Assembly: GCF_007995015.1 (NCBI RefSeq)
Contig: NZ_VORB01000010.1
Span: forward strand, 1-64,000
Direction: 5' to 3'
Length of the DNA stretch: 64,000 nt
From: Luteibaculum oceani
Lineage (GTDB): Bacteria; Bacteroidota; Bacteroidia; Flavobacteriales_D; Luteibaculaceae
This document shows positions 40,985-58,286 of this stretch, piece by piece (the stretch's first letter is position 1; each line of letters starts with the position of its first letter). The translations under genes and the position numbers were made by a program. The notes beneath the pieces were generated by a model. The model was not told the origin of the DNA and searched no databases. It was given only the letters and a program-made list of their open reading frames with translations.

Positions 40985-43519
40985 TTGTTAACCAAAAGAT
41001 CCAGTCGCACGAGTCTTGTTTTCGGTACTACCATCGCATTATTAATGGCGATTATTTCGCTGACCATTGGAAACAAAAAAGAGCTAATACTGGGCCCTTC
41101 TGGATTCCTGGAGGTTAAGTTATTTTCAATAGACAACCTATTTAACACAGAATCCAGACAGTTTAATGGGGAAATAATTTCGAGATCCTCCTTAACCTAT
41201 ACTCGCAAGGAGTTCAACGATTCCTTGTATACCGTCAACTCAAAGTTTCAAGTTTACCTTCCGAATGACACCCCCATTTTTTCAAAAACCAAGGAATACA
41301 TTGTAAATGGTAACGGTCGACTAAGCCCTAGTTTTAATAGTGGGGATGTTGGGTATGTATTCGGTCCACCCAAGAACCTAATGGCTGATAGCTTCTTGTA
41401 CTGGCATGTAAACTACAATCAGCCAATCTGGATGCATTACGTTAAAACGGAAAATGTATTCGAGACCCCTGCTAAGCGGTATGAGGCCTACTTTAAGGCA
41501 GATCAAACCAAGGATTTAACTGGATTACCACATGTGCCGGACAAATACGGCGTTAACCTGGATGTTTTCCTTCAGATTTGGGTAGATGAGGATAGCGGGG
41601 AGTTAGTAAAGTACGAAGACTTTGCTAATGCATGGTACTACGACCAAAAAACTGGCAAAAGGCTATTTCCTTGGAATTCATTCCATAATGAGTTTCAAAA
41701 CTCCGAAGTACTTCGGCGCATCGATCAAATTCAGGAAAACAAGAATATATCCCTGTTATTTCAGGTTATTATCCCCCTTACTATATTCATGTTAATATTA
41801 ATAGCGTGGTTATTACAATACAGGAAAATTAGGTGGTTTTTTGCTAAATACTCACCCTACATAATAGCCGGACTTATATTAATTGCTGGGATATCTTTTT
41901 CCGTAATAGCAGTAAACAATTACTGGAAAAACCAATATGCTTCCAAAGTCCAAAATGCAGATAGCCAGGGTCGAGAAATAATATCATCCATACAACGTGA
42001 AATGAAATTATGCGGGGAAACATTGGAGTTTCTCACCTATCAATTTAAACAAGCTGACACGATAACTTATGGGGAATTTGAGCAGCAAGCAAAAAGACTA
42101 ATAGCTAGATCTGGCGCCATATTTGCACTTTCTTGGATTAAAAAATTAAGTGAGCAACAAAAAATAAGGGCAGAAAAACTGGATACAAGTTTTAGAGTAT
42201 TTAAAAGAAATAAAGATGGTTCTTTCTCTCCTAATTTAAACGCAGCTCCATACTTCCCTGTGTACTACATATATCCAACGGAGGATAATCAAAAAGCATG
42301 GGGATATGACATTGGTTCCCGCCCTCAAACGCGGCAGGCTATTTTAACAGCAGATAAAACCGGGTCTGCCACACTTACTCCTTCTCTTATCCTAGTTCAG
42401 GAGGATGACTTGACCAAAAAATCGGTTATTCTAGTTTCGCCCATCAAGGATAATAACGACAGCCTGACGGGTACAGTTAATGCTGTAGTCCCAATAGAAA
42501 AACTTATACAATCCTCCTTATACAGATTCTCCCTACCCGATGATTTTAAAATAACCATTAAAGACATTACAAATGGAATTACTGACACCCTTACCCAGGT
42601 TCAGCGGGGTAATATCACCGGAGGGGTCCGCTTTTCGAAAAGTATTCCCTTAAAGGGAAGGATTTGGAATTTAGAATTCATTTATCCTTCCTCTATATTT
42701 AATTCTATTGGTTTTATTATCCTCCTTATGGGAATAATTATCTCCGTTGGAATAAGCACACTTGCAAGAAGAGAATTATCTGGAAAATCGAAACAGTTGT
42801 ACAGTGCAGAGGAAACCATACAGCAGTACAACAAGGAACTCGAGGTTAAGAATAGTGAGTTAAAACAATTTATTTATGCCGCTAGTCACGATCTCCAAGA
42901 ACCTATTAGAACCATAAGGAGCTTTGTAGACCTCATCCGAACTGAGGAAAATGCCAGAATTTCGGAGAATGCTAGAACCTACCTAAAATTTGTGAATGCT
43001 CATGTAAACAAAATGCATGATTTGGTGCAAAGCTTGGCACAATACATCAGAATAGGAAACAATGTAGAATTTGACCAAGTCGATATGTTTCAAATTGTTC
43101 AGGTTACCATGGTTAAACTACGAAGACAAATTGAAGAAATGGCTCCTTCAGTTATTTTAAGTGAACTTCCGGTTATTCATGGTTTTAAGGATGAAATGGA
43201 AATTCTTTGGCTTCAATTAATTCGAAATGCCCTTCAATATTCCGATAATAAAAAACCTCTGGTTATAGAAATTGGCTACAACGAGTCTCCTCACGATTAC
43301 AGGTTTTTCATACGTGATAATGGAATCGGAATTCCTCCACAATATCATACCCGTATTTTTGAGGTTTTCAGGAGGTTAAATCTTAACGAAGAATACGATG
43401 GAAGCGGTATAGGTTTATCCATTTGTAAAAAAATTCTACACCACCACAAAGGGGATATTTGGGTTGATTCGTCCGAAAACCAAGGCGCGACCTTTTATTT
43501 TACCATTCCAAAGACCTAA
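40985..43519 (+). CDS. Sensor histidine kinase with PorA/DUF3068-like and CHASE sensor domains
   Basis: This 844-residue kinase starts at TTG 40985 (no earlier in-frame ATG). Order: TM (about 10-28); an extracytoplasmic domain (30-245) resembling DUF3068/PorA (ETPAKRYEAYFKADQTKDLTGLP, QIWVDEDSGELVKYED); two TMs (about 253-275, 286-308); a CHASE domain (about 325-545, with GEFEQQAKRLIARSGAIFALSW); TM (about 572-595); coiled coil; HisKA with H635 in ASHDLQEP; HATPase with LIRNALQY, DNGIGI and GSGIGLSICKK. No receiver or output domain is attached. It lies 47 bases before the photorepair cluster. Confidence 0.88.
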   Translation: MLTKRSSRTSLVFGTTIALLMAIISLTIGNKKELILGPSGFLEVKLFSIDNLFNTESRQFNGEIISRSSLTYTRKEFNDSLYTVNSKFQVYLPNDTPIFSKTKEYIVNGNGRLSPSFNSGDVGYVFGPPKNLMADSFLYWHVNYNQPIWMHYVKTENVFETPAKRYEAYFKADQTKDLTGLPHVPDKYGVNLDVFLQIWVDEDSGELVKYEDFANAWYYDQKTGKRLFPWNSFHNEFQNSEVLRRIDQIQENKNISLLFQVIIPLTIFMLILIAWLLQYRKIRWFFAKYSPYIIAGLILIAGISFSVIAVNNYWKNQYASKVQNADSQGREIISSIQREMKLCGETLEFLTYQFKQADTITYGEFEQQAKRLIARSGAIFALSWIKKLSEQQKIRAEKLDTSFRVFKRNKDGSFSPNLNAAPYFPVYYIYPTEDNQKAWGYDIGSRPQTRQAILTADKTGSATLTPSLILVQEDDLTKKSVILVSPIKDNNDSLTGTVNAVVPIEKLIQSSLYRFSLPDDFKITIKDITNGITDTLTQVQRGNITGGVRFSKSIPLKGRIWNLEFIYPSSIFNSIGFIILLMGIIISVGISTLARRELSGKSKQLYSAEETIQQYNKELEVKNSELKQFIYAASHDLQEPIRTIRSFVDLIRTEENARISENARTYLKFVNAHVNKMHDLVQSLAQYIRIGNNVEFDQVDMFQIVQVTMVKLRRQIEEMAPSVILSELPVIHGFKDEMEILWLQLIRNALQYSDNKKPLVIEIGYNESPHDYRFFIRDNGIGIPPQYHTRIFEVFRRLNLNEEYDGSGIGLSICKKILHHHKGDIWVDSSENQGATFYFTIPKT

Positions 43520-54232: not shown

Positions 54233-54264
54233 AAGGGAGATCCATTTGGGTTTCCCTTTTTTAT
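54233..54264 (+). terminator. Terminator after the DUF4465 gene
   Basis: An AAGGGA/TCCCTT stem with inner TCC/GG pairing is followed by six T on the plus strand; it just touches the stop of the convergent response regulator gene. Confidence 0.7.
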
Positions 54265-54653
54265 TTAAACCTTCTTTCAACTTCTTCAACAGAAAGCGGT
54301 TTTATCAGGTACTCAGAAACAGATTTAAATCTTAAGGATTTCACCATATCCTCCGGATGGGAACTAGTGGATAAAAATTTTATATCTGGTATAATCTCAC
54401 TGTCATCCTGAAATATTTTTTCAAAGGCAACACAAAATTCCCAGCCATCCATTTCTGGCATATTAAGATCCAACAATATAAGTTGTGGCAAAACCTCAGG
54501 CTTAGTGGAATTAGCCTTTAAAAATGCAATGGCATCCACCGATGAATTATAAGTAAGAATATCAGCACTGGGCAGAAAATCATTGAGTAAAACCCTATTT
54601 ATCAGGTTCACCACATTGTCATCATCTACCAGCATTATCCTCGTTAAAGGCAT
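54261..54653 (-). CDS. Single-domain response regulator of the ethylene-receptor-like operon
   Basis: This 130-residue receiver has LVDDDN, the phospho-acceptor in LILLDLNMPEMDGWEF, LSTSSHP and LIKPLS. It lacks an output domain. Its start overlaps the last 32 bases of the kinase gene, so it is translationally coupled and is the likely cognate partner. Confidence 0.92.
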   Translation of the reverse strand: MPLTRIMLVDDDNVVNLINRVLLNDFLPSADILTYNSSVDAIAFLKANSTKPEVLPQLILLDLNMPEMDGWEFCVAFEKIFQDDSEIIPDIKFLSTSSHPEDMVKSLRFKSVSEYLIKPLSVEEVERRFK

Positions 54654-56160
54654 AAATCGATTTTAAATTTACAGGTAAGCTAAATACTATTTTACACCCC
54701 TCATTGTATGTACTGTCCAGCCATATTTCCCCAAACATATTTTCCACTATTTTTTTACAAATAGCTAAACCCAAACCTCTACCCAACTTGTTTTTTCGAG
54801 ATTTATTGGCAATTTGAAAAGGCGCAAAGATTTTTTCTCTTGCATCTTCTACAATACCCTGGCCATTATCCGAAATACCAATTACCCATTTATCACCCAG
54901 GGTTTTAGATGAAAATGAAAGGGTTAAGATATTATCTACAGCTCCAAACTTGAAAGCATTGGTAATAAGCTGATTGAATAACGTCTTAATTTCAGCCTTT
55001 GGTGCCTCCACATGAGGTAAGGTATCAAGGCCAATTACTTTAACCTCAGTTTTATGAAATTGCCTATTCACCTGTGTAATTACCAGCGCAACCATTTCAG
55101 CCAGATTTATTTGCTCTACATTTTGGTTCCAACCTGGGTTTGCGTATTCCGTAAGCCCTGTTATTAAGTCCTCTGCGCGTTCCGATTCCGACTTGAGGTA
55201 GCTTATTAATTGCGCTATTAAGGGGTCTTTACCTGCAACATCCAACTTTCGGTCCAAGGTTAAGGCTATGGATTTAAGGTTGCGAAGAGGTTCTTTTAAA
55301 TCATGTGACGCAACAAATACAAACTGCCCCATCTCCTTTCGCCTAGATTCTAAAACCGCATTTTGCCTTTTTAATTCCTCATTTTTTAAACGATAACTAA
55401 GGTCGTGTACAACTAAGGTAAAGCCCGAAACATAGCCTAATTGATCTTTCATGGCAAATAAGGACGCCGCAGCCCAAAACCTACCTCCTGCTTTGGTAAC
55501 TATCCACCCCTCTGCTAAAGATTTATTGTTGAATAAAGCATGAGCCAAAAACTTTTGAGGAAGTTGAAGTTCCCTGTCACCTTTTGGGAAAAATATTTCA
55601 TATGACTGTCCTATAATCTCTTCGGCTTTGTAGCCAGTAGCTACTTCAGCACTTTTTGGCCAGGTTTCTACTATCCCCTTTTTGCTCAAGCGCATTACAG
55701 AAGATTTCACCATGCTATCTAACATTTCGTGAAACTCCTTTTCTAACTTTTTGAACTGTATGGTTTTATTTCTAACCTTGAGGTGCTGGTTTATTCTCGC
55801 CATCTCCAGAGCATCCATTGCCTTTGTAGAGAACATTATTAAACCCGTAATCAACCAAAGTGGAAGAATACTGAGTACCGCTGATATGGGATCTAAATCA
55901 TCAGGCTTTAATGGGTTTATGGACAAACCAACTGTTATCAGTATTAAAAGAGTACATACCAATGCGGTTACCATGGTAATCCACCGCTTTTTATATACCC
56001 AGCAATAGAATACTGCGATTGTGTACAGTACGGATATAGCGGGAATCTCTTCAATCAATAAGTCTCCCACAAAAATTCCAACAACAAGCAAAACGTGGAT
56101 GAAGAGCAACACAAAAAATGAGATCCACGAATATTTATTGGCTTGGCTGGTTTTAAGCAT
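54622..56160 (-). CDS. Membrane PAS-domain sensor histidine kinase
   Basis: This 512-residue kinase has an N-terminal membrane domain of about four to five helices (residues 12-115), a short coiled coil, a PAS domain (about 150-255: GIVETWPKSAEVATGYKAEEIIG, KAGGRFWAAAS, SGFTLVVHD), HisKA with H286 in ASHDLKEPLRNL, and HATPase with QLITNAFKF, DNGQGI and GRGLGLAICKK. It overlaps both the ethylene-receptor-like gene upstream (8 bases) and the regulator downstream. The architecture is like that of phytochrome-class kinases, without a chromophore domain. Confidence 0.92.
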   Translation of the reverse strand: MLKTSQANKYSWISFFVLLFIHVLLVVGIFVGDLLIEEIPAISVLYTIAVFYCWVYKKRWITMVTALVCTLLILITVGLSINPLKPDDLDPISAVLSILPLWLITGLIMFSTKAMDALEMARINQHLKVRNKTIQFKKLEKEFHEMLDSMVKSSVMRLSKKGIVETWPKSAEVATGYKAEEIIGQSYEIFFPKGDRELQLPQKFLAHALFNNKSLAEGWIVTKAGGRFWAAASLFAMKDQLGYVSGFTLVVHDLSYRLKNEELKRQNAVLESRRKEMGQFVFVASHDLKEPLRNLKSIALTLDRKLDVAGKDPLIAQLISYLKSESERAEDLITGLTEYANPGWNQNVEQINLAEMVALVITQVNRQFHKTEVKVIGLDTLPHVEAPKAEIKTLFNQLITNAFKFGAVDNILTLSFSSKTLGDKWVIGISDNGQGIVEDAREKIFAPFQIANKSRKNKLGRGLGLAICKKIVENMFGEIWLDSTYNEGCKIVFSLPVNLKSIYAFNEDNAGR

Positions 56161-56656
56161 CCTTATACCCCTTGATAATTTCCTTTAAGACTTCATTTTC
56201 ATCCTTAAGTTGTTTGGATGTGTTTTTTAGTCTTTTGTATTCCTCTGAAGGGATGGTAACCGAGTCTTGGTCTTTTCCCAGATCGGGAAGTAATAAGTGT
56301 AAATCTTTAATTAAATAAACAAGAGTTAGAAGACTTGTAATTGCTGTCACCAATTTTAGCAAGCCCATCAAGCGATACATGGGGTGCCAGAACACTATAG
56401 CATCCATTAAATGGGTAAGCCCACAGCTAACGATAAAGGCTGCAAACAACCATACTAGCGGCGTAAATCTAAAACTTGGTCTGTTTCTTATTATTAAAAC
56501 TAAAACCACCGGGATTAGAAAATAGGCAAGCCAAATGAATAAATCGCTGATTATTTGCACCCACCCTTCAAATGCCGTCCAATCTCCACATCTCCATCTC
56601 GGTGGCCAGGATTCGGTAGAAAACAACTTGCTAAAAAATTCTGCAATCTGATTCAA
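56153..56656 (-). CDS. Stand-alone ethylene-receptor-like (ETR1 N-terminal) membrane protein
   Basis: This 167-residue protein has three membrane helices (about 35-56, 64-84, 93-117) and a C-terminal coiled coil (about 135-165). The membrane part follows the plant and cyanobacterial ethylene-binding domain: ISDLFIWLAYFLIP in helix 1 (D38, Y45, P49) and FIVSCGLTHL in helix 2, where C78 and H82 match the Cu(I) ligands Cys65 and His69 of ETR1. Unlike known receptors it has no kinase; the kinase is the next gene. It is the first gene of the operon. It may bind ethylene, copper or another small ligand. Confidence 0.85.
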   Translation of the reverse strand: MNQIAEFFSKLFSTESWPPRWRCGDWTAFEGWVQIISDLFIWLAYFLIPVVLVLIIRNRPSFRFTPLVWLFAAFIVSCGLTHLMDAIVFWHPMYRLMGLLKLVTAITSLLTLVYLIKDLHLLLPDLGKDQDSVTIPSEEYKRLKNTSKQLKDENEVLKEIIKGYKDA

Positions 56657-56726: not shown

Positions 56727-58286
56727 TTAGGCCATTCTTCCTTTTCCACCAGGAAGATCCTTAACACTTACCACAATATCTCGCTCAGGAGCATTTATTC
56801 TAAACTCTTCGATAACCTCCATGGCATCGAACTCAATTTCCTTAGATCTAGAACCGTCTATCATTACATGGCAGCCATTTGGAAGCCCATCTAAAGTGGT
56901 TTGCAATCTGGCTTTATTTAAGAAAGAAACGTGCTCACTCAGCTCTATTTTAATAGCCTCTCTCCCATCATCAGTTTTAAATTCACCCGTGGAATAATTA
57001 TAAGGAACTTTATAGTTAGCTCTTAGGATGTAGAAAATTCCAACTACCAAACCGATGATAATACCAATTAATAAATCGGTAAAAAGAATAGCTAAAATGG
57101 TAACTACAAATGGGATAAACTGTTGCTGACCAACTGCCAATAATTTTTTATAAATCGACGGCTTGGTTAATTTCCATCCAACCACAATTAATATTGCCGC
57201 CAAAGAGGCCAATGGAATTTGGTTCATGAAAGTTGGGAAAAATGCAACCGCTAATAATAACCAAATACCGTGCATTATAGCAGACATTTTAGTTTTGGCT
57301 CCCGAATCTAGGTTAGCAGATGAACGCACAATTACCGCAGTAATAGGAAGTCCTCCAATTAATCCAGAAACAAAGTTTCCAATACCCTGCGCCTTTAACT
57401 CGGCATTTTTAGGAGTGTGTCTCTTATGCGGGTCTAATTTATCTACCGCTTCAATACTCAAAAGGGTTTCTAAACTAGCAACTATTGCCAAAGTTATAGT
57501 GGTAACATAGGTTTGATAGTTAGAAAAAGCTGAAAAATCCGGAAACTTTAAAGCAGCAGTTAATCCGCCTTCACCAGAAAGAATAGGAATACTCACCAGA
57601 TGCTCTTTTCCAATGGCTAATGCCGATCCAGAACTTATAAAGATTTGATTTAAAATTAAACCAATGGCTACCGCTAATACTGAACCGGGGATTTGTTTCA
57701 GAGCCTTAACGCCCTTTATGTACTTACTTTCCCAAAGCACTAACAGACCAAGACAGATTATACCAATCACAAAACTTCCATTATTAAAGTTTTCTAAACT
57801 GGCTATAATCGCAGAAAAGGTATTGTTTCCGTCGGCCTGGAAGAATTCCATTTCTCCGAAAGCATCGCTATCGAATCCAACTAAATGAGGGATTTGCTTT
57901 AATATTAGAATTAACCCAATAGCTGCAAGCATTCCTCGGATTACAGAGGTAGGAAAGTAAAGCCCTATGATTCCAGCCTTTGCGAAACCGAGAATCAGTT
58001 GTAATAAACCAGCTAAACTTACCGCAACCAAAAAGGGTTCGTACCCTCCCAGAGCTTCTACATTATCCAGTACAATTACAACTAAACCTGCCGCCGGACC
58101 GGAAACAGAGAGACTAGACTTACTGAAAAAACCAATTATTATACCTCCTATGATACCAGAAATTAAACCGGAAATTAAAGGGGCCTCAGAGGCTAAGGCA
58201 ATTCCCAAACAAAGTGGCAAGGCCACTAAAAACACTACAATACTCGACGTTAAGTCGTACTTAAAATCTTCTTTGAAATAACTCAT
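56727..58286 (-). CDS. SulP-family anion transporter
   Basis: This 519-residue protein has about 11-12 membrane segments with the SulP pattern (ALPLCLGIALASEAPLISGLISGIIGG, SVSGPAAGLVVIVL, GLIGGLPITAVIVRSSANL) and a C-terminal STAS-like domain (FLNKARLQTTLDGLPNGCHVMIDGS). Relatives carry sulfate, bicarbonate or other anions; bicarbonate carriers are often beside carbonic anhydrase, which is absent here. It lies 42 bases after a small exported-protein gene and is likely cotranscribed with it. Confidence 0.93.
   Translation of the reverse strand: MSYFKEDFKYDLTSSIVVFLVALPLCLGIALASEAPLISGLISGIIGGIIIGFFSKSSLSVSGPAAGLVVIVLDNVEALGGYEPFLVAVSLAGLLQLILGFAKAGIIGLYFPTSVIRGMLAAIGLILILKQIPHLVGFDSDAFGEMEFFQADGNNTFSAIIASLENFNNGSFVIGIICLGLLVLWESKYIKGVKALKQIPGSVLAVAIGLILNQIFISSGSALAIGKEHLVSIPILSGEGGLTAALKFPDFSAFSNYQTYVTTITLAIVASLETLLSIEAVDKLDPHKRHTPKNAELKAQGIGNFVSGLIGGLPITAVIVRSSANLDSGAKTKMSAIMHGIWLLLAVAFFPTFMNQIPLASLAAILIVVGWKLTKPSIYKKLLAVGQQQFIPFVVTILAILFTDLLIGIIIGLVVGIFYILRANYKVPYNYSTGEFKTDDGREAIKIELSEHVSFLNKARLQTTLDGLPNGCHVMIDGSRSKEIEFDAMEVIEEFRINAPERDIVVSVKDLPGGKGRMA

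Follow-up and report, generated by a model that had tools for sequence, protein, structure and literature searches.

A putative split ethylene receptor in Luteibaculum oceani and other Bacteroidota

Known ethylene receptors carry their ethylene-binding domain (EBD) and their kinase in one chain. In the 64,000-nucleotide stretch of Luteibaculum oceani DNA analysed here, referred to as the window, an EBD is encoded on its own, directly ahead of genes for a membrane histidine kinase and a response regulator, which raises the question of whether an ethylene receptor can be divided between two proteins. The original prediction, made from the sequence alone, placed three such genes on the minus strand in the order EBD, kinase, regulator, and the three open reading frames were recovered as described. 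The EBD gene (56153..56656, minus strand) encodes 167 residues, comprising three predicted transmembrane (TM) helices followed by a helical tail, from a TTG start that agrees with the starts of its orthologues. Behind it are the 512-residue kinase gene (54622..56160, minus strand) and the gene for a single-domain, CheY-like response regulator of 130 residues (54261..54653, minus strand). The stop of the EBD gene and the start of the kinase gene overlap by 8 nt (56153..56160, minus strand; ATGCTTAA, lying within ...GGATGCTTAA...), suggesting translational coupling, and the kinase and regulator genes overlap by 32 nt. The EBD is thus free of any fusion to a kinase, as had been claimed, and the same separation into two genes is found in all 27 loci of this kind that we identified, referred to here as split loci.

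A SulP/SLC26 transporter gene (56727–58286, minus strand) ends 70 nt short of the start of the EBD gene and might be co-transcribed with it in this genome. As no other split locus carries SulP, it was dropped as a component of the system.

The putative ethylene-binding subunit

The 167-residue protein matches the Pfam profile ETR1_N (PF25487) over residues 31–120 with 111.5 bits (E = 2.5e-32), against a curated cut-off of 27 bits, which bears out the ethylene-binding domain proposed for it; the same profile is matched by 23 of 23 split members scanned. Residues D38, Y45, I48, P49, I75, C78 and H82 are, without exception, numbered 13 higher than the ETR1 binding residues with which they align, which we take to be D25, Y32, I35, P36, I62, C65 and H69. 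Five of these (D38, Y45, P49, C78 and H82) had been singled out in the original prediction, and the addition of I48 and I75 brings the set to seven of seven. All seven are needed for ethylene binding in ETR1 and are common to AzoEtr1 (PMC11819568), and the known receptors bind ethylene through a copper ion held by a Cys and a His of the membrane domain (PMC13012798). Loss of the pocket residues in orthologues would have counted against the assignment; they are kept in 27 of 27 split orthologues, the sole exception being one I48L. A basic residue, K or R, occupies position 101 in all 27 and aligns in our analysis with ETR1 K91, which is believed to form a bond with D25 and to take part in output (PMC11819568).

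Owing to the identity of these residues with those of proven receptors, ethylene is inferred to be the ligand, in the absence of ligand-binding data, and Cu(I)/ethylene binding by the subunit is likewise an inference. The same split architecture could instead serve a different natural ligand, such as copper itself, CO, oxygen or another small alkene, since a Cu(I) site could in principle accept other ligands and the hosts are aquatic and soil Bacteroidota for which the literature searched records no ethylene biology. This remains possible but unlikely: all seven ethylene-binding residues of ETR1 are kept, and ethylene is bound by the proven receptors of bacteria that share these residues (AzoEtr1, PMC11819568; SynEtr1, PMC6682694), in which an EBD of this fold is fused to the kinase and the signal passes on by phosphorelay. 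Copper handling in L. oceani is plausible, its genome matching the HMA heavy-metal domain four times, but this is not specific.

The structure model of the subunit has helices at residues 29–58, 65–88 and 92–122 and is of low confidence (mean pLDDT of only 60); in it, C78 and H82 lie one turn apart on the single predicted helix 65–88. A sequence search of the PDB found no solved relative of the EBD, and a PDB fold search with the model gave no meaningful match, a result that carries no meaning owing to the low confidence of the model. The coiled coil predicted for the tail has support at the level of the family, the heptad pattern being stronger than in shuffled sequences in 19 of 27 split members (p<0.05); by itself, the window copy does not support it (p 0.17). 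Thirteen positions best separate split from fused Bacteroidota EBDs, and seven of them (54, 57, 61, 65, 66, 118 and 121) are located near predicted cytosolic helix ends, where a separate partner would touch the subunit. As the split proteins form nearly one clade, this is suggestive only; the window EBD is without some of the split-specific residues (L54, R57).

The partner kinase and its membrane domain

At the N terminus of the kinase is a four-helix membrane domain (residues 1–131; 55768..56160, minus strand), referred to here as the 4-TM domain, followed by PAS (2e-7), HisKA and HATPase_c (7e-21) domains. The HisKA match lies below the Pfam cut-off (21.6 bits versus 26.9); the H-box, ASHDLKEPL, is present, as are the N-box and the G-boxes DNGQG and GRGLGL. 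The regulator is a receiver domain (PF00072, 4.4e-11) retaining the acidic pair, the phospho-Asp within LLDLNMPEMDG and the lysine of IKP. Kinase and regulator together satisfy the criteria for a two-component system, namely a HATPase, a phosphoacceptor His and a receiver with a phospho-Asp. The description of the second and third genes as a PAS histidine kinase with a membrane domain of its own and a CheY-like regulator is confirmed by the Pfam matches, the four membrane helices and the gene overlaps.

The 4-TM domain is specific to the kinases of split loci. It has no match above cut-off in Pfam, including the known membrane sensor domains MASE1, MASE3 and 7TMR-DISM, and none among PDB sequences, and its model (pLDDT of 85; helices 7–35, 40–53, 59–80 and 91–130) has no Foldseek match among PDB folds at E<0.001. 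The window copy is only 15–30% identical to the 4-TM domains of other split kinases. Distant relatives of the domain are present in frames of 570–590 residues with no adjoining EBD (G933:C11:86652-86990, G869:C2:270227-270565 and G461:C1:3012061-3012384), hinting at a wider, unnamed family of membrane sensors. Elsewhere in the window is a gene for an 844-residue histidine kinase (40985–43519, plus strand), the core of which is roughly as close to the split kinases as is that of the window's partner kinase.

A profile of the 4-TM domain gave exactly one match per genome, in the kinase adjoining the EBD, in 11 of 11 genomes with a split EBD. In the family of Algoriphagus lacus (G815), for which 246 genomes were searched, an EBD is present in 60, of which 18 encode one in a short frame (143–220 residues). 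Strong 4-TM matches (E of 1e-22 or better) fall in the identical 18 of the 246 genomes, each adjoining the short EBD, and the next matches, in other genomes, are at E of 1e-13 and weaker. These 18 co-occurrences are not 18 independent events, as the genomes share ancestry. Elsewhere in the phylum, a search of 395 genomes turned up only weak relatives of the 4-TM domain (best E of 1e-14). The split-specific subfamily was never found without an EBD in the sets tested, within the limits of EBD-only and 4-TM searches that scored restricted numbers of candidates and may have missed weak members. Both a split and a fused EBD are present in two genomes of the A. lacus family (G821 and G852).

With membrane and PAS domains of its own, the kinase might sense its own signal through either of them, the EBD merely stabilizing or tuning it; distant relatives of the 4-TM domain exist in genomes without an EBD, and kinases are often repressed by small accessory membrane proteins (PMC8534201). 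Pure scaffolding, however, would not need an invariant pocket, and the restriction of the split-specific 4-TM subfamily to genomes with an EBD also argues against this explanation, which we regard as improbable.

Recurrence and origin of the split

The family of L. oceani is represented by one genome, and its order, which includes a Crocinitomicaceae metagenome-assembled genome (MAG; L046/L029), was searched for the EBD in 399 genomes. Just four other genomes had a match, three of them encoding a standalone EBD (166–176 residues) followed immediately by a 4-TM kinase and the fourth giving only a weak, sub-threshold match; a scan of the family of G367 recovered the same four genomes. All other EBDs in the scan of 395 genomes of the phylum are fused (frames of at least 385 residues). 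A scan of public genomes, with an alignment of four split EBDs as the query, yielded 80 loci and, together with the earlier loci, gave the 27 distinct standalone-EBD loci. These are from isolates of Flavobacteriales and Cytophagales and from Bacteroidota MAGs, with genera including Aquiflexum, Algoriphagus, Belliella, Marivirga, Lunatibacter, Chryseotalea, Cyclobacterium, Pleomorphovibrio, Ekhidna, Gramella and Maribacter. No relatives were found in a scan of viral contigs.

The predicted gene order recurs throughout this set. A 4-TM kinase gene is located immediately downstream of the EBD, on the same strand, at every one of the 27 loci, overlapping it at 22 (gaps of −1 nt in 14, −4 nt in 7 and −8 nt in the window; 5 non-overlapping), and the regulator is the third gene in 20 of the 24 loci with enough downstream sequence. 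It is absent from beside the kinase at L027, L028 and L036, where the kinase is intact, and at L029, where it is broken. The latter locus, in a Crocinitomicaceae MAG (G267; L029:352-1938), has the partner kinase in two frames of 303 and 198 residues, as a result of either decay or an error of assembly.

Genes upstream of the EBD vary between split loci and are unrelated, and the linkage of EBD and kinase is therefore not a matter of general synteny. Conservation of the arrangement in 27 loci excludes a chance origin. From the linkage of the two genes a heteromeric EBD–kinase complex is strongly inferred. Linkage does not prove contact, and the two could be mere neighbours, with the EBD working as a homodimer through other partners, but this is very hard to reconcile with genes that are linked without exception, mostly overlapping, in unrelated contexts and co-occurring one to one. 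In a phylum in which fused EBD–kinases are common, a frameshift or sequencing error in the gene of a fused receptor might also be suspected of having produced the split. Many isolates share the same break, the kinase has four extra TM helices found in none of the fused proteins examined, and the residues are conserved across the 27 loci; an artefact of this type, the chance of which we put at next to nothing, was rejected. A Rosetta-stone search for a natural fusion of an EBD to a 4-TM kinase found none among the fused receptors examined.

In the EBD tree, the 27 split EBDs group together with two fused Chitinophagaceae proteins (support 95/87), nested among the fused Bacteroidota EBDs, with the window EBD forming a long branch. 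The split state requires two changes on this tree and a single clade survives the AU test (p 0.30), such that a single origin is neither shown nor rejected. The two fused EBD–kinases inside the group (L042:2951-4072 and L063:2390-3496) are without the 4-TM domain and may be re-fusions. Distances between EBDs correlate with those between the 4-TM domains of their kinases (r of 0.91) and between the kinase cores (0.93), which fits co-inheritance; as the core correlates equally well, the co-divergence could reflect co-inheritance alone. In the kinase-core tree, background kinases were too sparse and long branches too numerous for fission to be told from recruitment. Outside the phylum, the planctomycete Neorhodopirellula pilleata (L108:4791-7378) encodes an EBD with a helical or coiled tail, followed, with a 4-nt overlap, by a kinase with two TM helices and a double PAS; this split is apparently independent of that in Bacteroidota.

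Proposed mechanism and relation to known systems

The system is likely to be a split ethylene receptor, composed of a Cu(I)/ethylene sensor subunit, a dedicated membrane kinase and a regulator, with the complex, the ligand and the output being inferred. The three helices of the 167-residue subunit, which lacks a catalytic part, would form the Cu(I)/ethylene pocket, to which helix 1 would contribute D38, Y45, I48 and P49 and helix 2 would contribute C78 and H82. Within the membrane, the subunit would pair with the 4-TM domain carried by its co-translated kinase, the helical tail of the subunit probably packing beside the helix that leaves TM4 of the kinase. Binding of the ligand may then shift the joint helical bundle and alter the activity of the PAS, HisKA and HATPase module, which would phosphorylate or dephosphorylate the single-domain regulator. 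The sign of the response and its downstream output are also inferences.

Dependence of an intramembrane-sensing kinase on a separate membrane sensor encoded by a linked gene, as envisaged here, is a feature of UhpC–UhpB–UhpA. Similarly composed of a separate membrane sensor, a kinase with a membrane domain and a regulator, with linked genes, is BceAB–BceS (PMC8534201). The sensors of both systems are transporters, unrelated to the EBD. By analogy, the simplest account is that the split system would work as do other kinases reliant on a separate membrane sensor (PMC8534201).

The bacterial receptors SynEtr1 (Slr1212), AzoEtr1 and GeiEtr1/2 share with the split system a 3-TM EBD, the same seven residues and a histidine kinase output, and AzoEtr1 has, in addition, an output-less 135-residue regulator gene just downstream of the receptor (PMC11819568). 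They differ in having EBD and kinase in one chain, whereas the split system has two proteins and a kinase with its own 4-TM domain. The plant ETR1 family shares the EBD fold and the copper/ethylene residues, but has GAF and kinase modules in the EBD chain; in the split system GAF is missing and the kinase is separate. The original prediction assigned a sensor, GAF and kinase to the single chain of known receptors, which is correct as to the single chain but not as to GAF, as fused bacterial receptors often have PAS or no extra domain (AzoEtr1, PMC11819568). Output domains of bacterial EBD proteins are varied (PMC7700396). A second EBD in the L. oceani genome (L031:4959-6083; G000:C7) is fused to a kinase and has a regulator gene behind it, and split and fused receptors therefore coexist in this organism. 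This paralogue resembles the split system in its EBD, kinase, separate regulator and N-terminal WPPRWxCG motif, and differs in being a single chain without the extra 4-TM domain. The split EBD belongs to the ETR1-type family, but because EBD and kinase are not in one polypeptide the complete system is not a canonical ethylene receptor kinase.

Given that the two- or three-gene set recurs in many Bacteroidota, the split arrangement is real, and it is apparently undescribed. In the open literature searched, no paper dealt with ethylene-binding domains of Bacteroidetes or connected Algoriphagus to ethylene receptors, and standalone EBDs went unmentioned; the search did not include key surveys, and priority is not proven. 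We lean towards a two-protein ethylene receptor in Bacteroidota, in which a standalone pocket subunit signals across a protein–protein interface to an unnamed 4-TM kinase domain, the split probably having had a single origin there, or a very small number of origins, and perhaps a further one, involving a different kinase, in N. pilleata.

Sensing of ethylene, or of a copper ligand, is indicated in the aquatic and marine Bacteroidota Algoriphagus, Marivirga, Maribacter and Ekhidna, in which no report of ethylene sensing was found in the open literature. The 4-TM region is a new kinase membrane domain to follow. In the plant receptors, the route from ethylene binding within three buried helices to the kinase is still unclear (PMC13012798). 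Here, sensor and kinase are separate proteins that can each be expressed, mutated and recombined independently, and the interface through which the signal would pass can therefore be mapped.
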